64,000 nucleotides of DNA, taken from NCBI RefSeq assembly GCF_947623445.1, contig NC_135242.1, forward strand, positions 558,001 to 622,000, in the 5' to 3' direction. The number at the start of each line of letters is the position of its first letter. Position 1 is the stretch's first letter. Both the position numbers and the translations under genes were made by a program. Shown here one piece after another: positions 2,013 to 57,100 of the stretch. The stretch comes from Clavelina lepadiformis. Its lineage: Eukaryota; Chordata; Ascidiacea; Aplousobranchia; Clavelinidae. The notes under the pieces were generated by a model, which saw nothing but the letters and a program-made list of their open reading frames with translations, did not search any database and was not told the origin of the DNA.

Positions 2013-2870
2013 CTGGAAATAGAATCAACAACAGTTACTGGTAGGCCAGTAATATATCATACAATTATACCAAGTCAAGTGCATCGTTTATTACTTTATT
2101 ACGTCAGCAGAAAGATTCTTCATCACTGTAACTGAGCATCCGAGACCCTCAAATAGTTTCTTCATCAGTTTGTGTTCTTTTTTCCCTTCTACACCTCTTG
2201 AAAGCGATTTGTGTTTCGCTTTGAAAGGGCCTTCCACTTCGGAAACTTGGTATTGCTTAAGATTAGAACGTGTCCTTTTGGCAAAACGTAAAATATCTTA
2301 AAGGATTACATTAAAACAATAACGTTGCACTTTGTAAGCTATTGCAAACAGCATACAAGGAATCTGTGTAAATTTTAAATCTTTTGAGGTTGAAAATTTA
2401 TAAAAAAATATCTTTTTCAAACCACCCCCGTCATTAGTCTATTTCCTTTGTAGGACATACACATCATATTTAGCTTTGTTCTCAAAAGAAGTTTCTCGAG
2501 CTGCACAAAAATAAGACCACGAGCATAACATATAAAATTGATGTTAAAGACTTTTAATGAGAAAAGCTTTAAATTGAAGGATGTATTTAAGCTGTAGGCC
2601 TACATAGTAGAGGTGGATGCTTGGTGCCTACATGTTTGTAACTGACTTGCCTTTTTCTGATAACGAATGAAACTGAAATGATTTAGAAGCAACACTCCCC
2701 TCGGTATCTGCATCCTTCAGTTTACACTCCACGTTTTCCAAATCAATTTGACAAAGGCAAACTGCCCAGTAATCAATGGCTTATCTTTGAAGATTTGAAT
2801 GCTTCGAATTTTTGTCTGGGCTGGTTAAGATTCTGCACCAGGGCATTTCATTTCCAGTATCACTAAGAGG
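2013..2870 (-). pseudogene. Decayed copy of the TPR-ZU5-caspase gene (exons 8-10)
   Basis: Colinear with 10847-11850 of the intact gene, including introns, so it is a DNA duplication and not a processed copy. The part at 2120-2275 matches the first caspase exon: the GHVLILSN coding stretch, the RGVEGKKEH stretch and the VTVMKNLSADVI stretch are all recognisable. It has lost the start of that exon and an internal stretch, and carries a small insertion that places stop codons just after the ADVI codons. The part at 2620-2870 matches exon 8 with a deletion of about 20 bases. The copy cannot encode a caspase. Confidence 0.8.
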
Positions 2871-7944: not shown

Positions 7945-9568
7945 TTATGAGTCTCTTCTTGTTATTACGTTCAACGCCGCAACATGTCTTTATGCTGTTG
8001 CTGTGACAATGTTTTATCTTGATGTATTCGTTCAAAGAAGCTTCAATATAATCAGAATATATAGTTGTCGAGGTGTACAATTAATTCTAAGATTAAGAAA
8101 AACAGACAACGACCTTGAGACTCATTTACATCGAGGACATTAAACAATTCAACAGAGAAACTTTGTAATTGAAGTGGTCGCCCTTACAGGATAAGGAACG
8201 ATAAACAATCACTTCATTACAAGCTATTTCGTATATTCATCGAATTCAACGCATGTTCGGCCGAGGAGTGAAAAGGACATGGCCCAGTGCCAATGTTGTT
8301 CCTGCAACATCACATGGAAGTAAGCAAGAAAAGATTTAGCAGAGTGACAACGTAATTGCCTGAACTCATCAGTTGTCAGGTATAGCGATGAAGGAATTAA
8401 GTTGATCATATTTACTTGCGCACCGTGTATGCTGTTTATTAAGGGGCTGTAGGTCCATCCGAAGGCCTATCTTAAACAATGCGAAGTAACATTTTTCAAT
8501 TTGCATTTGCTACTAAACAAGCCGGTCATCTAGCTGAGTTTTTGTATCCACCGAGATGTAGGATAAAAGGACTTAATGCAATAAATATTTTGAGCAAATT
8601 CTCGCATCTGAAATTCTCACACCAAATGCTTCAACTTCTTTCCTTGCATTTTTCCAAACGGCAGCCGAAAAGCCTTAATTTTGAATCAACAATAAATGTC
8701 AACTTTAGCCTGGACCTACACTCAGCAAAATCCATATCAACAACAAACCATCACAAATTAACCTCACATGCTCACTGGACCGGAACCATTTATACTTTTT
8801 CTATAGTGACGTCTTGGATAAGACCTTCGTCACAATCGCCGTGTTGCTGTTTTAAAACTGCTCAAAATGGTACTACAGGCCCTTAAGCACCTGCACAGTG
8901 AAGCGAATGGCTTTTGCTAGCAGCCTAGCCTAGCGGTTAGTCGATACTTGCCAATTATATCAGTCCAACACCAAAATCTCTTTCCAGTTTAATAAACTAT
9001 TCACAAAACTACTCTCATAAATCACAGTGCACGGTTTGAGATGCGACACGTAAGATTGCATAAACACATACAGCGCATGAAACAATTACGTCAAGTGCTT
9101 ATGGCCGTTATCGATGCTTGCATTTGGATAGAAAACGTCAATTGCAAATAAACCACATTACAGGTTGCAGGTATAATAATAATGTTTTTGTATTATATTA
9201 TTAATGATTACAAGTTATTTTCTTAAGTGCAAGGAAAAATTGGACAGTAAACAATAATGTTAGCTCTAAAATCCTGCTTCTGACAAATAATACTGCACGG
9301 CTTACGTTTACTTCATTCATACAAACGCAGTGCAGCAAATCAATTTCAATAGAGAGCATTCAATCAACACAAGATAACTAAAAAATTCAAAAACAATCAA
9401 ATCAATGTTAATAAAAAATATATCGCTTTTGAAAAGTGCATTTCAGCAACAAAAGCACAAAATTCTACAATATCAACAGGTTAACTACCACACTGGCTAT
9501 TCAACCAATATTCAACATTGTTCAAACGATTGGCCTAAAACTGAATCTCTATCATTGAATGCACGGGT
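7945..9568. other. No gene seen
   Basis: Open frames here are short or of low-complexity composition and show no known domain. The left part of the stretch just before 9569 is probably 3' UTR of the minus-strand caspase gene. I found no clear polyadenylation signal for it. Confidence 0.4.
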
Positions 9569-12500
9569 TCATTCCATGTGCAATATTCCAGGATACAAAT
9601 ATAACTTTTTCCTTAAGGAGAACCAAGTGTCTGTGAGTTGCATGCTGCCATCGGACCATCTTCTACTTTGATGCGAAACCTCATTATTGACCTGCAGTGG
9701 TCAGAGTAAAAATTTGCAAAGTTTTACGTTCAGTCCGAGATACGTTTACCAGTCGTTACAAGACAAAAAAATTATGCTGAAGTTTGCCGAATGTTGATAA
9801 ACATCAACAATCATTGACTTACCTTTGTCATCAAGTCAAGCAGATGCTCGTCTTTAGCTTCTTTCGAAAATATACGAACAATGCTGCTCATGTATAATCC
9901 ACGCTTCGACTTAAAACCTGACGAAAAACATTTCCTCATGTATAATTTATAAGTTTACAACTTATCGAACATGATCCTGCTCAGGAAACTGTAAGTTGCG
10001 ATTTGAAAAGCGAATTTTATGGCTTGTATTTTTTTTCCTATTTTTCATAATTTGTGTTGATATAATAAACGCACCCTCTAACGTAGAGAATCCAACGAAG
10101 AGGTCAGGCTGGCTTACAATTTTGCTCTCAGTGCACAAGACGCTTTTAAAGTTCTGGAGAAGTTCTGCAAAGAGAGTAAAGTAATTAAGCATGCGAGGCA
10201 TTGGTGAAAGCAGACCCATTTGCTTCGTTGTACGTGCTGTTGCAACTGCGTAAAGAAAAGTTCACACGCGTACCGTAAAATGGACGTTGCAACGTTTTAT
10301 TTGCAACTGAATTTTATTAACTGAAAGCAAAATACAAAAAACTTAAGCAAAGTTTGAAAATCACGTGTTGGTGTTGAAGAATCTTGTGGAACATATTTGG
10401 ATTCGTTTTCATCGGACTCGTTCCCTCCATCTACAATATTAGAAGACGGCGTTGGAGGCAGATCAACAAATGAAAAAGTGCGTTAAACTTCAATGAAATG
10501 TTTGGCACAAACATAGGTTATCAAACGGTCTCCAAATAAAAACAATCATCGTACATCCTCTGCAGCATTGAAAGAAAAATACTTTTGGTTTCCCATCCAA
10601 GCTTTGGCTATCCTCGCTTTTACAGAACTTTTCAACAATTTCTGGTACTGAGACTGGAACGCAGTCCGATCCAAATACCAATGTTCCCCGTTTGACATCT
10701 AAAACATATAAAGCATGAGACGATAAAGTCTACAAATGACATACAAGACCTTAACCACGAAAACATCACCACATTTTCCATGGCTCATCATGCATAGTAT
10801 GGAGAAGTTTGTGTGATCGGACCATTGTGAAAATTTCTCAGCAGAACAACGTAGCTTCTGGAAATATAATCAACAGCAGTTACTGGTAGGCCAGTAACAT
10901 ATCATACAATTATACCAAGTCAAGTGCATCGTTTATTACGTCAGCAGACAGATTCTTCATCACTGTAACTGAGCATCCGAGACCCTCAAATAGTTTCTTC
11001 ATTAGTATATGTTCTTTTTTCCCTTCTACACCTCTTGAAAGCGATTTGTGTTGAGTTTTCTTGAACTGCCTGCCACTTGAAAGGGCCTTCCATTTCGGAA
11101 ACTTAGTATTGCTTAAAATTAGAACGTGTCCTTTTGGTTTTTCTTTAACCTGGTATACCTGGCACAACGTAAAATAACTTAATTACAGTAAAACAATAAC
11201 GTTGCACATTTGCACTTCATGAGCAATAATCCACTTAGTAAGCTATTGCAAACAGCATACAAGGAATCTGTGTAAATTTTAAATCTTTTGAGGTTCGAAA
11301 ATTTATAAGCTTACAAAAATATCTTCTCAAAACCACCTACATGCTTATTTCCTTTATGTTTGTTGAAAAATGCTGTCGTTGTGTGTAAGACATCCACATC
11401 ATATTTAGCTTTGTTAGACGATTCTATCACATTTTCCTCAAAATTTTCTGGAGCTGCCCAAAATTAAGACCACGAGCATAACATATAACATTGCTGTTAA
11501 AGACTTTCAATGATAAACGCTTTAAATTGTTGTAGCCATTGCTAGTAAGTAGTTAAGGATGTATTTAAGGTATACACAGTAGAGATGGTTGCCTAGTGCC
11601 TGCATGGTTGTAACTGACTTGCCTTTTTCTGACAACGAATGAAACTGAAATGATTTAGAAGCAACACTCTCCTCGGTGTCTGCATCCTTCAGTTTACATT
11701 TCACGTTTTCCAAATCAATCTGTCCTTCATCTTTGATAAAAGCAAACTGCCCGGAAATCAATGGCTTGTCTTTGAAGATTTGAATGCTTCGAATTTTTGT
11801 CTGGGCTGGTTCAGATTCTGCACCAGGGCATATCATCTCCAGTATCAGGTTTTGTTTCTTTCTGAACACAGCAATGAGCTACTGGTTTGAAAACAACTTA
11901 ACAACCAAATAAACAAACTGTTTCAAAACACTCACCGCACTTCCACAGAAAATGTCCACGCACTTTCAATATCATGAACATCTGGAAGATTTTCTACCAT
12001 TTTCCACTTAATAACGGGATCACTCGATTCTTCCAAAGATTTTTCACAAATAAACATCATTTTTTTGACATTAAAGTTGGCTTTTGTGCCCTGGATTCTT
12101 TTTCTGTTAATTGATATCAAGTTAGTTTGACAGTGACACGGGAGCATTACATTCATACTCACTTACTTGCAAAATGAGGTCGTACTAAAAAAGATTGAAT
12201 AATCATCCTGCACTTTCACTGGTTCCAGCTTTTTCCAGCCACATCCATCATTTGTTTCAGGCTGAAGATAAAACAAGTTTTTTGCTTAAAAATTACAATG
12301 TCAAAATTCAGTTAATTTCAGTTTGATAAAAAAATGCAAAATATTAGGGGCCAAGTTTGACACAAGAAAGATATTTCAGTAAGTGAGTAAGTAGTGAGTA
12401 TGATATGTATGATGCGTCGTACTATGTACAAGATATGTTTTACTGAGCTTTAAAGACCTTAGAAAATTGGATGCACTGTTTCGCACTGATGACAAAATCA

Positions 12501-15500
12501 AGTGTAGCCTACACTTACATCACACTTACCGCGACCAGGACATCCTTCTGCGTTGTTCTATAGCAAGTGGGCATTTTTATGGAGACTGGTCTTTTAAATG
12601 TCTGACTTGGTGAGCATTTCAACGTTGGTGTTAAAACAATGTTTTCTGAGGTCTGTTGGATTAACAAAGTGTACATTGTTTTCTTGCAGCACATACCCCT
12701 AATTTTTTGAAATTTCGCCGTCCACTTTCCTTCAATCATAATTTTAAGGTCACTTTACCAATGCCAGTGCAGTGCAGGCAAAGCAACAAACGGATTCTTT
12801 TCTTAAGGTTAATCACATAAATTTACCTCTGCAATGGAGGGTTTGTGCTTCAGAGCAAATTTGAAGAAAATATACTCCTCCAATGCTCCAGGAGGAATGT
12901 TGATCTCACAACCTCCGAATTTAATGACATCTCCATCCTCGCCAACTATCTGTGGCAACATAATCTGTTAAACTATCTGTTTTGTAACATAAAATAAAGC
13001 ACCAAAAACTTTTATGACGTAGTGATCCTCCACGTGACCGCTGCAATTGGATACTCACTGCCGATGTACAGAGTGTAATGTAAGTGCTTGAAGTTTCTTT
13101 GCTGCTCAAAATTTCACCGCCGGTACCTTCACCAACAAAACAAAACATTACGGTGTTAAATCAGTGTCTCTGCATCATTAGGTAGAAGTCTAACTCTAGC
13201 AGCTTTGTATTTGCGCTTTAACTTTTCTCGACTCAAAAGTTCTCTTACCTGCGTTCTTTGTTTCATGACAAGGGTCCTTTGGTGATTGTCGGTGCTGGTT
13301 CTGAGAACGTAAATAAAGCATAGAATTATAATACCGTCTAATTGTGAAATAAGCTATGCAATTTTTGATGATTATTTCCAGTGTAAATACAGTAATAGCC
13401 AAAATTAAGAATTAACTATACAGTATATTACAAAATTGCATAGTTGTTTTTAGCTCTTTCGTCTGTTCTGTCTGCATGAATCAACCTTTTAACTCTAAGC
13501 ATCGAATTACCATCAATTTCATCCTTTTCTACTTTACCTCAGCCTCTCCTTCTAAGGATGTTGAGCAGACACTTAAAGCCATTTGAGAAGTTGTTTGCTG
13601 CTGTTCACTTTTAACAGGAACTTCTGTTAAGTGCTGGACCGTGGAAATGTCGCGTAAGGCCACAAATGCTTTAAAATGATACAAAGCTTCCCTCTCTTTT
13701 CCTGTCGCCATAGATTGTTTGCCAGAAACATACATAACTGTTGCCATGGCATTTGCTATGGACTGCCTTAATGTCATAAGAACAGGGTTTTTTTCAATGA
13801 TGTTTTGACATGTAGGCATCAACTTTTCAATTTCAGAAAATCTTTTCTTTGCAAATAAGCTGTCAATCATATGTCCAGAAGTTGCTAAGACGTGAACATC
13901 ATCGGAGTCTGTATCTTTAGATATTTTCTTTTGAATTTCCAAAGCACTGTTAAAACTTTCCAACGCCTCATCATGTCTATTTAACTTTTGCAAGCAAACA
14001 CCGGCGTTGAAAAAATAGGCGGCAGCATTTTCATCTCTGGCCAAATCAATGGATGCTTCCTTTTGTATTTCTATCGCTGATAGATGTTTAGATAAAGCTT
14101 CGTCAAGTTTATCAAGGTGAAATAAGCACTTGCCAATCTGATTAAGAAAAAGTGCCACGTGTTCGTTCCTTTTTATTTCAGGGGATGTTTTTTCTCGAAT
14201 TGCTAAACCGTTTTCGAAAAACGTGAGAGCTTCTTGAGGAGCATTTGTTTGCACAAGACATTCGCCAACTACATACGAATAGGTGGCAATATCTTCATCT
14301 ACTTCAGGGTTTACTGAAATACGTTTCTGCACATCTAATGCTTCCTGAAATTTTTCTATTGCTTCGTTTTGTCTTCCTAGCCCAATTAAACACAAACCAA
14401 CCTGAAGAAGTAAATTTGCATCACTTTTATCTTTACTTTCCATTAAGCATTGAAGCCGAGCTGTGATTTTGATCGTGTCATCATCAGCTATAGCTTTGCG
14501 TTGAAGTCCCAAAGCGGAACGAAATTGTTGCAAGGCTTGTTCATGACGTTTTAACTGTGCATAGCAAATTCCAATGTTGGTGTGATACTTGGCTGTGATG
14601 GAATGATGTTGATCATTCTGGGGAAGCTGTTGTTGGATCGAGAGACCTTCCTCCAGACATTTCAACGCTTTTTCTGGCAAGTGCATGTTTCCATAGCAAA
14701 CCCCTAAAGTAAGCAGAGTACCTGCGATGTCTTCGTTAAGTTTTTCTTCGGTGTTTATTTCTCTTAGAACATCCAAACAAGATGTTAAGTAATTTGCAGC
14801 TTCTTTATAGTTGTTTTTGTCCATTAACATTGACCCAATTTGCTGGTAACGTCTGGCCAATGCGTTTTTGTCCGATACTGATTTCAGTAAAATATGTGAG
14901 GATTTTTCCCAAACTGTAAATGCATCATCCATTTTGTCAAGTTTTGCGAAGCAAATTCCTTTATTAAACAGGCAATCGCTGACAAATGTCTGCCTATCTT
15001 CATCTGATGGGGAGCTATCCATGAATTCCAATGCTAATGAAAAGTTATCTGAAGCTTTGTCGAACTGGTTCAGATGATAATAACACAAACCAATCTGATT
15101 GAAATAGTTGGCAATGAGTGGTTTATTCTGCTTATCCGAAGCAAGATTTTTTTGAATTACAAGACCGTCTTTGAAATATTTCACACTTTCTTGGTGGTTG
15201 TCCAGGTTTTTGTGACTTATTCCCATGTTAAAAAGTATGGCGGCAATTCCTTTATCTTTATTTTTGTCTTCAGTGATGGTTCGGCGAATTTTTAGCGATT
15301 CTTTTAAATATTCTAGAGCCTGTTTAGAGTTTTTTAATCGATCGAAGCAGATCCCGATTTGATTAAAAGTGTCTGCTATATCTTTATCCCTGCTTTCGCC
15401 TGATGACAACTCTTTTCTAATCTCTAATTCTTCTTGAAACAATTTGAGAGCAGCGTCATAGCTGCCCTCTACGCGAAGGGAAACTGCTCTGTTGAAAAGT

Positions 15501-15721
15501 GCATTTGCTTTATTTCTTCTTCTATCACTGACCATGAACGGAAACTTAATTTTTTCTGGCGTCAGGAACTGATCCTTGGCATCCTGCGAGAGTGGTCCAC
15601 TAGAGAGGAGATAATCGAAAAGCGGATCCCATTCTGGTTGCAGAGTAGGCGGGAGCTGTTTCCCAGATTTTTCAGAAGACAAATAATTGTCTGACAAACG
15701 TTGCGAAAACTGGGTACTCAT
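9569..15721 (-). CDS. TPR-ZU5-UPA-caspase fusion protein, 15 exons
   Basis: Exons on the minus strand: 15721-13538, 13300-13249, 13126-13059, 12949-12827, 12652-12530, 12261-12167, 12103-11936, 11861-11576, 11158-10916, 10857-10770, 10698-10555, 10430-10365, 10164-10075, 9917-9823, 9691-9569. All junctions are GT/AG and all phases agree, giving about 1,315 residues. Residues about 75-700 are 12-13 TPR repeats of kinesin-light-chain type (FNQIGICF pattern). Residues about 752-880 are a ZU5 domain (GGCEINIPPGAL; TLKCSPS...PVSIKMPTC). Residues about 880-1033 fit a UPA domain. Residues about 1034-1315 are a caspase: GHVLILSNTKF, catalytic His about 1140 in MMSHGK, catalytic Cys about 1189 in FFFQCCRG, then small-subunit strands (FVGFSTLEG, FSKEAKDEHLLDLM, KKLYLYPG). 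It is likely a cytosolic cysteine protease gated by its own TPR and ZU5-UPA parts. That role is inference. The least certain junctions are the donors of exons 10 and 12. Confidence 0.85.
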
Positions 15722-48153: not shown

Positions 48154-51100
48154 ATGTTGAAATTTATTTTTGTTTTCATCCTGAATCTCTCCTTCGTCCA
48201 AAATGAAAGTGAGTTCTCTGATAGTTCTCTGAAATTTAAAATAAATTTTTTTGCATCATTTTCAATTATTTTTGAAAACCTTTGCTTTATTAAAAAAAGC
48301 AGCGGGTTATTGCGATACCAACTTGAGATTTTAAATCGAAATTATTTTTAACGCAGATGGCGGTAAGGAATATCCTCCATACGACGGTTGGTTCAACAAC
48401 AGAGACAACCCTTCATCGGGAGTAATTGGTGAGTTAGATCAAATTTCGTTCTTTCGAAAAAACAAAATTTTTTAATACAATCAAAGTTTAAAACGACTTA
48501 TGCAATTATGTCGTAACAATGTTTAAACGATTTAATCGTTTTTATTCCGACAATTAGGAAAGATGTCTTTCTGTAAACAAAGCGGATTTTATTTAACCAA
48601 TAACCAGAAACGACGTCGCGTTTGGTCGAGTTGGTCTTGTCACAAAAGAGACAATTCACATTGTTTTCGTTCAAGCTTTGTCTTAGCAACGAGACATCCC
48701 GGTTACAACCGAGCAACCGGCGATGATTTTTCAATTCTCATCAAAAACAACCTGATAGTTTCGCTCTATCGTTGACAATATTTATGAATATTTTAATCGA
48801 AAAGAAATCGCCGGTTTGTTCATATTTGATTATGACAAATAACCGCGTTTGTTTGACAAACAATGGCGGCTCAAGCGACCAGAGGGAAATTCAAAGTTTC
48901 AAAATGGCGATTTCGATTTTAGAATGTTCGTCAATCAAAATGAACTTAACGACAGAAAATCACTCAACTCTTGTTTTATGACGACAAGTGAGCAAATAAA
49001 CCGTTGAAACATTTATGACGCAACATTTTTGCTGTATAATGACGTAATAAGCAGTTATCAACCATGCAAGAGTGAAGTTTCAAATTTATTTGATTAAGAT
49101 TGTTCCAATATAAACGACGACAGCGAATAGGTTCCACCGTAAGACGATATCGCGGTGAATGGAAGGATTTTACGAAACGGAGAGGTTCATGAACAGACAG
49201 GATTGCTGATCTAGACAAAGATTGGATTCAATCAACTCAGTAAATTTCAGTCAAATTTTCAACTTTAGCCTGAGTCGATTTTTTCCGTCGCTCAAATTCT
49301 AACTCAATGTTACATCACCACGAAGGCTGACTCTGATTGGTTGACACAAAATTTCGCAAACTTAAACTTGCCTTGCCAGGTCCCCTTATAATGAACTCAT
49401 TAAATACAACTGCTGCAGGGTGGAATCTTTTAAAATGTATCTTTTACTTCATAAAGCTGTCTCCACGCCTTCAATTATTACGTAATAAATACTATTTATG
49501 ACCGAAAGTCGTTTCCAGCTTGAGTCTCTCAAACCAATAAAACAATCCACTTCTCGCTCTGTCTGGAAACATCTCGCGTAGGAGCGACTCCCCTACCCTC
49601 TATTTGTTCGCTGATTATGACGTCATATATATTCTAGATTCGACGCTTTGCAGAAGACTTCCAACGCATTATGAGGATGGCGTGAGTGCGCCATCTGGTG
49701 CCAAGAGACCCAATCCTCGGCTTGTGAGCAACGTCATAATGGCGGGGGAGAGCGGCAAAGCTTCGTACAACAACAAGACAGCGCTCTTCGCTTTCTTTAG
49801 TGAGTTAACTTTTGATTTCGGGACTTTACAGTTAAAATTCCTGATGAAAAGTTGCAGCGAATATTCATTTGTAATCTAAAAGTTCATAAAGAAGAAAAAG
49901 AAATTCGAGCGAAAATATACTTTTAAGTGATCTCTGACCTTGATCCTTTTCAAACACTTTCACCATCATCAGGTCAACACGTTCTAAGCGAGATTGTGAA
50001 CGTTCAAAGCAACCAATGTCCGCCCGAGCCCTTCAACATTCCTCTGCTGGAAAATGACTCTTTAAACCCGCAAAAAAAGAAATTTTTTCTGATGCCATAC
50101 GAAAGATCGCGTTACGACACTTCCAACTACGGGTCTTCCCCCAACCATCCAAGGAACCAATTAAATGACGTCACATCTTTTTTGGACGGCGGAAGTATAT
50201 ATGGGTCACAGAAGTCCTGGGCCAATCAGCTTCGGCTTTTCAATTCGACCTGTCCAATGAGAACACGAACTTCGAACTTGTTTGCAAGTCAGGTATGACG
50301 TCATGTATGTCATAGTTATGATATCACTACAACTATTGTGAGCTCATGTGTCGTAAATTTACTCTAAGATCTGAACAAATACGTCATTAGGTTTCGGTTT
50401 TGACGTCAAACTTATTGCGTTTTAGAAAAATCCGACTGACTGCCGAGGAGAGTTGAAGTCGTTGAACGACGAAGGGAGATTCCCCGGTCAAAATGACGTA
50501 GGACTTTTTTACGAAAATCACTTTGATCCAAGAGACCACAAGATCAAGAAAACGGAAAGTTTTTACCGTAAGTTTGTTATTTCTTGATCGTTTTCTCACA
50601 TTTAGATTTTTATAGTCGGCGACATTCTATTTAAACCCGTCGCGAGTTTACCGACTCCGTATTTGATCGAATTAATTATTACGTCATAGAGATACAAAGT
50701 AGGCGCCAGAATTTTGAATTCTGAGAATTGGAAAGAACTCGCAGCAAAGATTAAATAAGGAGCTAGTTTAGGTCGTTGACCTTGTCTCGAACACAATAAT
50801 ACTTCTATGGCGTAAAAGTTCAAACAACAACATTGCTGTTTTGAATTTAAAGGAAAACAAGTGAACATCTCGCACGTGCGAGTGCTCTGTTGGCTTGTTC
50901 AGGAATAAACTAAAACCCGACAAATAATTGTGACGCAAGACAAGGAGCCGGAACTATTATGAGCAAACAAACGATATTTACTCAACGTAACGATCAAACC
51001 GGCCCACGTGGTTTAATCTTTGATTGTTACGTGCTCACGTCTACCGGCTTTATTATGACGTCAAAAAAGCGTTTTCAGTGTTTAGTGCATAATTCTGTTT

Positions 51101-54100: not shown

Positions 54101-57100
54101 GCACTCAGCACGTCTCCGACTGGATAACAATGTACCGATTATGAGGTGATAACAGTCTAAGTCGTTTTTCTAGATTCAGAAAACTGCAGATAACTCGATC
54201 GTTTTAAAATCTGGCAAAAACCGAAGACTTTTAGAATTTAAGGGACATGTCGAGATTTACGTCAGCAAAGACAAAGGCAGACGAAGCATGTTCGTGAGGA
54301 CAAGTCGCGCAACATACGACCTGGTAAGTGGTTATCACTGATACACTGAAGCTCGCAAATTTAGACCTGATGAGTTTTCATGATTCTTTAGCGATGACAT
54401 TTTTCTGTTTTTTATTGGATTGTGTGGTGACCTGGGCACCATGTTTGCTTTCATTGGTGGCCGAAGATATTGGCAGACTTTTTTGTCTGTTTTTGTTTTT
54501 ACTTTCGACTTTCCCATCACAGCGCCTCTAGTGATCTCTGACAATTACTCTTCAATGTCGTCATCTTTGCCCAGGTTTTGAAATTTGAAACTTCGCGCGA
54601 ATGCGAAGATTTCATCGAAGTTTTAAGAAATTCCTTCCACGCTTCCGGTGTCTCTTTTTCGACGTTGGCGCTGAGCGAGAAAGAGCTCTTCCGAGAAGCA
54701 AAGATGAAGGATGCACGAGATGAAGAGCTGAAGAATTTCTTCCGGACTGCCCTGGGAAAAGTAGGAGGAGTTTTGATGAAAATGTTTCCGTCTAATTAAT
54801 AAGATATCTATATAAATGCGATATAAAATTGGGTAGAAACTTGGTAAAGCTGCAATATACAGGATTCGATTAAACCTAAAGTAATGAAAGTAAGAAGAAA
54901 TGAACGAGATAGAAAGGAAAACAACCACCATAAAAATAAAATAAACATAAACTTGACGTAATTCTGAGAGAAATAACAGAAGTTTTAAAAGAGCATGATC
55001 CGGTGAAATGTTAAAGTAAGATGAATTTTTCTTCTTTAGTCGATGAATCTGGATTTGGATGAAAACAGGAACGTCCCGGATCCATCAAGATCTCATGAGC
55101 TCATCACCACCAGGTTGTCCCAGGATGAATTTGCCGAATACTTGAACTTGAAAGCAAACAGCGGTTTCGTTCGTCAGATGTTCCAAATTGCAGGCAGCGA
55201 CGAGAACGACTTCATCACCATTCGAGAGTTCCTCAATATCATTGTGCTCTTTGAGAAAGGTGAGTTGTTACGTTGAAAGAATTCCTGGATTCCTGGTTTA
55301 AAAAACTTTTCATTCTTGGAAACCTTTTTTTACCTTGAATTATTCTTCCTCTCGCCAGCACTAACTTTCCTTTATTTCGAACGCAACAGGCAACACGCCG
55401 GAGGGCAAACTGAAGCTGATGTTTGACATGTACGACCTCGATAAAACCGGAAGATTGTCTGCGGATGACTTCAAGAACATGCTAAAGTGACTACAAATTT
55501 TACCACTTATTTATACGTCTAAATATTTGTAAGGTTGTTTTATGCTTTTCCTCATGTTCTCTACATGACCATTTAAAAAAAAATTGCTCAAACAATTTTG
55601 TGCAAACGATTTCTATGATTTAACATCAGGTCAATGTTGGAAGCCATCAACACAAAGATTGACCTCGACAATCTTGACCAGCATGTCAATGAAATTATGA
55701 CATCTAGCGGCTGTTTTTCACGAACCGGACTGACGTTTGATGACTTCAAGAGCTTGGTAGAGGATCATGAAACCCACTTGTGCGCCTGCAAACTAAATAT
55801 CCCAGGTTCATATTGTTGCGTAACTATACACGTGACCAACGAAGAATTCACTTTCATATATTTCTGTGGAAAGTTTCGTTCTGTATCGTACAAAAATTTA
55901 TAGTTTTTCGATTAAAATTTTTCTGCTTATTTTTGAAGATGAATCAACCAAAACGAAGAGAAAAACAAAACTTGAAAGATTTCGAGAATCATTTAAAGGA
56001 GTCGAAGATATGTAAGCAGCTTTTAACAAAAGCGTGATAGTTAAAAATGCAGACAGGATGCAATGTTAGAAAACAAAAATTGAATAAAACGGCCTTAAAA
56101 GTATTCTTAATCTTCCAGCGGTTTCTCCTCAAAGAATAATCTTGACGATCGCATTTCCAGCGTCCGGATCCAGCAGCATCCAGGGAAGTTGAAGAAGATG
56201 AAAGTGGTGGTGGAGAAATACGTCGAACATTACAGATTATGCATCTTCTGGGTCGGTCTCTACACCTGGGTCACTATCGGAGTCTTCTTGTACGCATTCA
56301 GTGAGTTGATTATTTCGATACATCTAGTTCAGAGAACGCCAAAAAAATTTTAAGAAGAAAATTCGATTCTATAAATTTGATCATAGATTAGTGAAGATTA
56401 TGTAATAGATTAGATTAACTTTAAAGAATTTGAAAGATTAGAATTAGGTAAGTTATTTTATCAAGCATTCTAGCAAGTATTCTAAATTAAATATTGATGC
56501 TGTGACTGCTGTTTTTTTGCTCTATATTTGAACAAACTGATTGGATTTTAGTGTCCATGGTTATGATGTCTATGAGATGTTGTTAAGTTGATGAAAATAC
56601 TTTTCTTTACATCTTATTCCATTTCAGACGCAGCGTCATCAAATAAACAATCCGGTCTCGGTTTCATTACCGGCTATGCTGTGCCGCTCGCTAGAGGCGC
56701 TGCTGGTGCACTAATGTTCAATTTCTCGACAATCCTCCTCACAATGTGCCGGAATACGATCACATTTCTCCGCGAGACCTTTGTCCATAGATATGTCCCG
56801 TTCGATTATGCCGTCACAATGCATAAAATTATCGCCTGGATGGGAATGTTTTTTTCAGGTAAGTCGCACCACTGGGTACCGAGTTAAACAGTTAAAATCA
56901 CTTGAAAATAACCGAATAAACCCAAAAAATGAACGATTGTTTCTCCTTAAACTTAGTTGTCCATGTGGTGGCGCACGGAATCAACTTTTACTCCATTGTG
57001 ACGCAATCGCCTTCCGATCTTCTTTGCTACTTCCGCGATTATTGGTATTCGAGCGATTTCACGCCCAGCTTTTTGTTCTGGTGTTTGCAAACCATCACGG

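Follow-up and report, generated by a model that had tools for sequence, protein, structure and literature searches.

The window analysed here is a 64,000-nucleotide stretch (C3:558001-622000, presumably on chromosome 3) of the genome of the ascidian Clavelina lepadiformis, which comprises 209 Mb in 95 contigs. On the minus strand of the window, from an ATG at 15721 to a stop codon ending at 9569, lies one continuous gene of 16 coding exons, all in phase; its 1369-residue product, in minus-strand reading, carries about 12 TPRs in a single exon, followed by ZU5, a region in the place of UPA, and a caspase. Fifteen exons joined in phase had been proposed in the original prediction, made from the letters of this DNA; the in-phase joining and the single minus-strand gene stand, and the count is corrected to 16.

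Exon structure and domains of the gene

Exon boundaries were checked with a custom spliced protein-to-genome aligner, by which public proteins and five paralogue proteins (from loci C4a, C4b1, C4b2, C5a and C3x1, listed further below) were aligned to the window DNA. P0001 is a public Clavelina protein of 1059 residues, extending from the TPRs to the UPA-like region and 83% identical to the window protein; P0002 is a separate caspase record of 224 residues, 74% identical when a missing exon is counted as a gap. Both apparently derive from another assembly than that of the window. Given the window gene's own protein, the aligner returned exons 2-16 exactly, a result which tests the aligner and not the gene model; the paralogue models are not fully independent, because the window protein served as a guide in drawing them. 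All introns are GT-AG except intron 8 (GC-AG, 169 bases, with its GC donor at 11622), and the exons, in window coordinates, are as follows.

Exon 1, 13538..15721, minus strand: 728 residues, of which about 70 are N-terminal, followed by about 12 TPRs counted by eye; Pfam stretches from residue 72 to about 600
Exon 2, 13249..13300, minus strand: linker; identical with P0001
Exon 3, 13059..13126, minus strand: linker; identical with P0001
Exon 4, 12827..12964, minus strand: start of ZU5; with P0001 the in-frame acceptor lies 15 bases downstream, so that the exon begins at 12949
Exon 5, 12530..12652, minus strand: ZU5 core, residues 815-855; both ends match the model with all five paralogue proteins
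Exon 6, 12167..12261, minus strand: end of ZU5, with the SFC motif S884-F885-C886 (C886 codon 12171-12169)
Exon 7, 11936..12103, minus strand: region in the place of UPA
Exon 8, 11623..11861, minus strand: region in the place of UPA, followed by the GC donor; both ends match the model with all five paralogue proteins
Exon 9, 11341..11453, minus strand: linker from the putative UPA region to the caspase; both ends match the model with four of five paralogue proteins
Exon 10, 10916..11158, minus strand: start of the caspase large subunit; 3' end less sure, with 10940 preferred by four of five paralogues
Exon 11, 10770..10857, minus strand: caspase part bearing the catalytic H1167 (codon 10782-10780); position of the 3' end sure to one codon
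Exon 12, 10555..10698, minus strand: caspase, with catalytic C1216 in QCCRG (codon 10564-10562); same with P0002 and all five paralogue proteins
Exon 13, 10365..10430, minus strand: inter-subunit linker, with YVPQD ending at D1235; recovered by P0002 and by C5a but by none of the remaining four paralogues
Exon 14, 10075..10245, minus strand: start of the small subunit; 5' end less sure
Exon 15, 9823..9917, minus strand: small subunit; same with all five paralogue proteins
Exon 16, 9569..9691, minus strand: end of the small subunit, and stop

Against the window DNA, P0001 gave six of seven introns identical to the model, the seventh being the shifted exon 4 acceptor, and P0002 gave two of four; P0001 aligns with the window protein from residue 11 of P0001 onwards and has an extra 30-residue stretch within its TPRs. 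The paralogue proteins gave 8/12 (C4a), 8/13 (C4b1), 8/12 (C4b2), 8/13 (C5a) and 9/11 (C3x1) identical introns; all five agreed on the 3' end of exon 4 and on exons 5-8, 12 and 15, and four on exon 9. The doubts over exons concern a handful of residues and the stretch that links the two subunits of the caspase, and leave the domain order unaffected.

A domain and profile search, which the original prediction had named as a check of its link between TPR, ZU5 and caspase in one gene, bears out all three, over the Pfam cut-offs or strongly; UPA matched nothing. The TPRs were found by Pfam TPR_12 (E 1.9e-57) as six stretches in the window protein, in the tandem units of 34-42 residues expected of the repeat, and helices are predicted there in a low-confidence structure model of P0001. 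For ZU5 (PF00791) the score was 24.0 bits (cut-off 21; E 4.6e-5); all eight family rows matched it at E up to 1, the best at 8.7e-8. A profile of the family matched the ZO-1 ZU5 structure at E 6.5e-5 (nine rows) or 0.012 (eight rows); against ankyrin ZU5 none of 100 shuffles did as well, at an hhalign probability of only 34%; in the hhalign comparisons with ankyrin only the ZU5 part was matched, at low probabilities (2.6%, 11% and 34%), and UPA gave nothing. ZO-1 was the only ZU5 protein matched, and matches to structures of an FNR-type regulator and of TIF1-beta (E 0.05 and above) were taken as chance. On these comparisons the identity of ZU5 is firm.

The caspase (PF00656; E 2.8e-22, score 80 bits with the cut-off at 21.4) has the peptidase C14 fold by Pfam and, as had been claimed for it, contains both His and Cys: H1167 lies in MSHG and C1216 in QCCRG, aligned to SHG and QACQG of caspase-8, whose structures are the nearest solved ones to the caspase part by sequence (E 1.9e-12). 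The best match to this part in a named species other than Clavelina was P0003, a caspase-2-like protein of Styela clava (E 2.2e-18), which shares FFQCCRG with the window caspase; there the caspase is joined to a death domain (Pfam), whereas the window gene has TPRs and ZU5. No Death match was found in the window protein among the 25 of 27 Pfam families listed.

ZU5-caspase paralogues and the join into the caspase

When the protein of exons 2-16 was searched against the species' own genome (E up to 1), at least 79 matches were obtained, and 69 of 81 candidates were scored. The matches included at least 24 ZU5 groups; among the 24 listed, seven, of which the window is one, are followed on the same strand by caspase matches (the nearest at 1.0-2.1 kb), and none has a caspase match upstream or on the opposite strand within 5 kb. 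This count of ZU5 loci rests on matches to this gene's protein, and a genome search with Pfam ZU5 gave four stretches, this gene included. The ZU5-caspase loci other than the window are these.

C4a, C4:403465-406916, plus strand: ZU5-caspase paralogue
C4b1, C4:1223278-1219591, minus strand: ZU5-caspase paralogue
C4b2, C4:1239713-1236027, minus strand: ZU5-caspase paralogue, near copy of C4a
C5a, C5:747208-743583, minus strand: ZU5-caspase paralogue
C3x1, C3:24184361-24180387, minus strand: ZU5-caspase paralogue
C3x2, C3:24189873-24193549, plus strand: ZU5-caspase paralogue, with no recognisable Cys motif in its model

By the aligner, the introns before residues 814, 855 and 943 stand at the window's places and in its phases in all six paralogous loci, as do the joins into the caspase (1019-1033, phase 1; 1058-1060, phase 0); the intron before residue 887 is common to five of the six (not C3x2), and later introns agree in most paralogues, with C3x2 and C5a uncertain towards the end. 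In alignment A1, which holds the window, C3y (a row lacking the caspase) and four further rows, C4b2 and C5a not being among them, the five rows are 33-35% identical to the window. A unique oddity of the window was rejected as an account of the fusion, since six paralogous loci share ZU5 and caspase; likewise, a chance fusion of neighbours is unlikely because six distant loci share the order from ZU5 to caspase and, for the most part, the places and phases of the introns. What the DNA itself shows is the arrangement of the gene, exons that join in phase, the catalytic His-Cys pair and paralogues built on the same core of ZU5 and caspase.

A tree of 12 caspase rows places the six that are linked to ZU5 in one group, with support of 87/84, below the strict mark. 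The tree was built without C3x2, which is counted as a ZU5-caspase locus, and without C7, which was left out of both the tree and the count because its aligned model is broken.

The catalytic residues bear on a reading that accepts the fusion but takes its product for a scaffold or decoy, with a caspase part that is inactive or merely binds other caspases. The His motif is present in all seven ZU5-caspase models and the Cys motif in six, so that both are kept in the window, C4a, C4b1, C4b2, C5a and C3x1, and the ratio of nonsynonymous to synonymous substitution (dN/dS) of the caspase exons alone is 0.30 and 0.42 in two paralogue pairs; this reading, for which the C3x2 model and substrate-loop and linker regions unlike those of mammalian caspases (by eye, against caspase-3 residues) can be adduced, is unlikely. 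Over the ZU5-caspase exons as a whole the point estimates of dN/dS are 0.38 (C4a/C4b2) and 0.44 (C4b1/C5a), and the UPA-like part of the C4b1/C5a pair is near neutral, at 0.88.

Several observations weigh against the reading, set out below, of this gene as a single-chain initiator caspase. P0001 runs on through the exon 8 donor and stops short of the caspase, and P0002 places the caspase on a record of its own, although the contigs that carry the two records agree in length (11.6 Mb). With four of five paralogues the ends of exons 10 and 11 fall 24 and 3 bases earlier, and only C5a and P0002 gave exon 13. Donors are weak at several introns (the GC after exon 8; GTGATG, GTACGA, GTATAA), and AATAAA is absent from the 1 kb after the stop, where only ATTAAA at 8993 and weaker variants occur. 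In searches of the genome with Pfam models, ZU5 was seen at E 0.003 and the caspase was not among the matches listed at E 0.001; such models see the gene poorly because introns cut it. The selection figures come from paralogue pairs and not from the window copy, and one word-limited search found no relative of this architecture outside Clavelina.

The first two of these points suggest two adjacent genes, one for a TPR-ZU5 protein whose end lies within exon 8 or beyond it, the other for a short caspase, joined in our model by the accident of their nearness. The break in the public models falls at the GC-AG intron, a type that gene finders often miss, and intron 8, only 169 bases long, contains neither AATAAA nor ATTAAA. 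P0002 is moreover a poor model, since it lacks exon 11, which carries the catalytic His, and reads into the intron after exon 14. Because P0001 and P0002 break between exon 8 and the caspase, this join rests on the conserved intron places of the paralogues: both joins into the caspase are kept in all six loci, and joins 8-9 and 9-10 were recovered in the window with four of five paralogue proteins (not C5a). Taken with the same-strand, downstream position of the caspase in seven of the 24 listed ZU5 groups, and with none placed otherwise within 5 kb, these findings make two genes quite improbable.

A break at the other end, between TPRs and ZU5, had been named in the original prediction as the finding that would overturn it. 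It is opposed by P0001, which joins the TPR exon to exons 2-8, and by C4a, where an upstream frame of 1099 residues matches the DUF294 nucleotidyltransferase (E 1.8e-5) and TPRs (E 2.5e-21), and a 57-base GT-AG intron could link it in phase 0 to the ZU5 exon; in both cases the evidence is a gene model. The order TPR-ZU5-caspase is thereby found at two loci, the window and C4a, with about 35% identity in the ZU5-caspase part, and among the loci in 59 TPR-exon matches only these two coincide with ZU5-caspase loci. The TPRs may have been taken up twice, as the window TPR exon is closer to C9 TPR arrays (44%) than to the TPRs of C4a (33%). Arrays related to the window TPR exon form very long open frames, of up to 2405 residues, at C9:2447731-2492208 and C3:2353422-2418459.

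The window gene also has partial tandem copies, at window 2097-2863 and at C3:531136-531881 (both minus strand), with a UPA-like exon and a caspase exon; at 2097-2863 the identity is 87-100%, and the matches to the copies fall in different frames. Such copies would fit a pseudogene, or a recent chance fusion within a decaying tandem array, but all 16 exons are open and in phase, P0001 and P0002 match with largely the same joins, and the diverged C4a has the same domain order, so that we consider this explanation very improbable.

The end of ZU5 and a candidate single-chain caspase

The stretch after ZU5, of about 137 residues, has the place and length of UPA and had been labelled UPA-like, a label that the comparisons fail to sustain and whose failure also tells against the proposal below. 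Pfam UPA (PF17217) matched none of the eight family rows at E up to 1, no UPA structure appeared among the profile matches to solved structures, and in the hhalign comparison with ankyrin UPA as many as 85 of 100 column shuffles scored as high as the family. A search of the genome with Pfam UPA gave no match either for this gene or for any positive control, a negative of little weight. The structure of P0001, predicted without an alignment, has a mean predicted local distance difference test score (pLDDT) of 41, falling to about 20 from ZU5 onwards, too low to be informative there.

At the end of ZU5 stands a motif suggestive of a self-cleavage site. According to PMC3210808, CARD8 and NLRP1 cleave at SF/S and PIDD at HF/S, cleavage of CARD8 needs F296, S297, H252 and H270, and the nucleophiles of this self-cleaving class are Ser, Thr or Cys. 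SFC occurs in six of the seven ZU5-caspase models (window, C4a, C4b1, C4b2, C5a and C3x1) and SFI in C3x2; in A1 the S and F are invariant in all six rows, the next residue being C in four, S in C3y and a gap in C3x2. The site in P0001 is SFC by alignment, and an earlier SFS also occurs in that protein. Among related loci outside the ZU5-caspase genes, C3y and L039 carry SFS (as SFSW), C7 has SFW and C4c SEL, and no SF motif was found in L041.

These motifs invite comparison with FIIND-like sensors, in which SF/C self-cleavage by a Cys nucleophile would allow the TPR-ZU5 half to be lost and a caspase-bearing fragment to be freed. Besides the prevalence of SFC, the SFSW of C3y and L039 and the inclusion of Cys in the class, the spacing is similar, 43 residues from the PTC motif to SFC in the window against 45 from His-252 to Ser-297 in CARD8 (CARD8 numbers from PMC3210808). 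In the window, however, the His-252 and His-270 places, located by counting and not by structural alignment, hold Thr and Asn, which is a further point against, and a His at the latter place occurs only in C4a and its near copy C4b2 (the latter by reading). The UPA match was not found, and C7, C4c and L041 depart from the motif. Of the features of FIIND, a Ser nucleophile, the His pair (by counting) and a C-terminal CARD are each lacking in the window gene. Self-cleavage of the window copy at F885/C886 is doubtful, because the His of CARD8 is Asn there, and a FIIND-like sensor seems an unlikely description of this gene.

On the in-phase gene model, the Pfam and structure matches, the introns and catalytic motifs shared by the paralogues, their dN/dS values and the second TPR-ZU5-caspase locus C4a, we lean slightly towards reading the gene as a single-chain initiator caspase, with the TPRs as sensor or docking arm, ZU5 as switch or clamp, and the caspase as built-in effector. 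That sensor, switch and protease form one chain, as originally proposed, holds in so far as repeats, ZU5 and protease join in one in-phase model; the UPA part is not confirmed. At rest, the ZU5 part, perhaps with a UPA-like partner, would hold the protein in an inactive state; TPR-mediated binding or clustering would bring caspase domains together (proximity activation), upon which these would form dimers and undergo self-cleavage in the stretch between large and small subunit, for instance at a candidate site after D1235, and a cell-death or immune response would start. Were the chain also to cleave itself at F885/C886, in the manner of CARD8 and NLRP1, the half after ZU5 would be freed together with its caspase; in this copy that step is doubtful.

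In vertebrates the link from ZU5-UPA proteins to a caspase is made by adaptor domains, a death domain in PIDD1 and a CARD in NLRP1 and CARD8 (in part PMC7483925). PIDD1 (LRR-ZU5-ZU5-UPA-death domain) resembles the window gene in placing a repeat sensor before ZU5, upstream of a cell-death output; it recruits its caspase through an adaptor, whereas here the caspase lies in the same chain, with TPRs in place of LRRs, one ZU5 stretch in place of two, no death domain found, and SF/C where PIDD has HF/S (PMC3210808). The LRRs, second ZU5 and C-terminal death domain that mark PIDD1 were thus not found in the window protein among the 25 of 27 Pfam families listed. NLRP1 and CARD8 (FIIND, that is ZU5-UPA, then CARD) likewise have ZU5 ahead of the effector and SF at its end; in contrast, the window gene has a caspase for the CARD, Cys for Ser after SF, no conserved His, no NACHT, and a UPA that is only putative. 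An amphioxus LRR-ZU5-kinase protein (XP_035662392, in a table of PMC9573974) also unites repeats, ZU5 and an enzyme effector in one invertebrate-chordate chain, with a kinase instead of a caspase and LRRs instead of TPRs; because this repeat-ZU5-enzyme chain exists in another chordate, the window architecture is not wholly new in kind. Bacterial conflict proteins with caspase, TPR and ZU5 domains (PMC3482391 and PMC8195603) share the domain vocabulary but have other domain orders, and the comparison with them covered TPR matches, e.g. P0010; fusions of TRADD-N to FIIND or UPA-Zu5 are reported in the latter paper. In keeping with the claim that no animal protein of this order had been described, none was found among the papers listed in searches of a literature that mostly leaves out subscription papers; nor was ZU5 with a caspase in one animal protein found described there, including passages of PMC8195603, PMC3482391, PMC3196919, PMC10923776, PMC9573974, PMC7483925, PMC11760013, PMC3210808 and PMC10884593.

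If the reading as a single-chain initiator caspase is true, tunicates would have a family whose caspase sits in the chain of its own sensor, showing that the adaptor step can be dispensed with; it would offer a minimal system for the study of sensor, switch and protease within one polypeptide, and one in which to ask whether Cys can drive ZU5 self-cleavage. Split public gene models can hide such fusions. A broader and rather speculative extension, itself unlikely, is that Clavelina has a class of one-protein devices akin to inflammasomes or the PIDDosome, in which an SF/C ZU5 switch sits directly on a caspase and varied sensors (TPR, nucleotidyltransferase-TPR, perhaps death-domain/kinase) or other effectors (TIR) are plugged in.

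Frames near the paralogues and elsewhere in the window

Several frames lie beside ZU5 loci as neighbours and not as joined exons. Upstream of C4b1 are death-domain (E 8.2e-8) and kinase (E 5.3e-14) frames (L024 4-291 and 3826-4260; C4, minus strand), with a PiggyBac-like frame, recognised by eye, between them. C5a is preceded, at a distance of 11 kb, by a NACHT frame (L028 7299-8750; C5, minus strand; E 8.6e-15). About 0.5 kb downstream of C3y, the ZU5 locus with SFSW, is a TIR frame (L037 3465-3794, C3:24138465-24138794, minus strand; TIR_2, E 5.1e-15), a neighbour only, and another ZU5 gene with SFSW is followed after about 3.6 kb by a kinase frame (L039 3-467; C4, minus strand; E 1.4e-17). 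A frame in L040 that resembled a caspase start by eye had no Pfam match and was not counted.

Elsewhere in the window, an animal haem peroxidase exon occupies 49927-50298 on the plus strand (PF03098, E 5.7e-17). Nearby plus-strand frames, up to 57680, have the look of a dual oxidase by eye, the frame at 56576-56887 being without a Pfam match.

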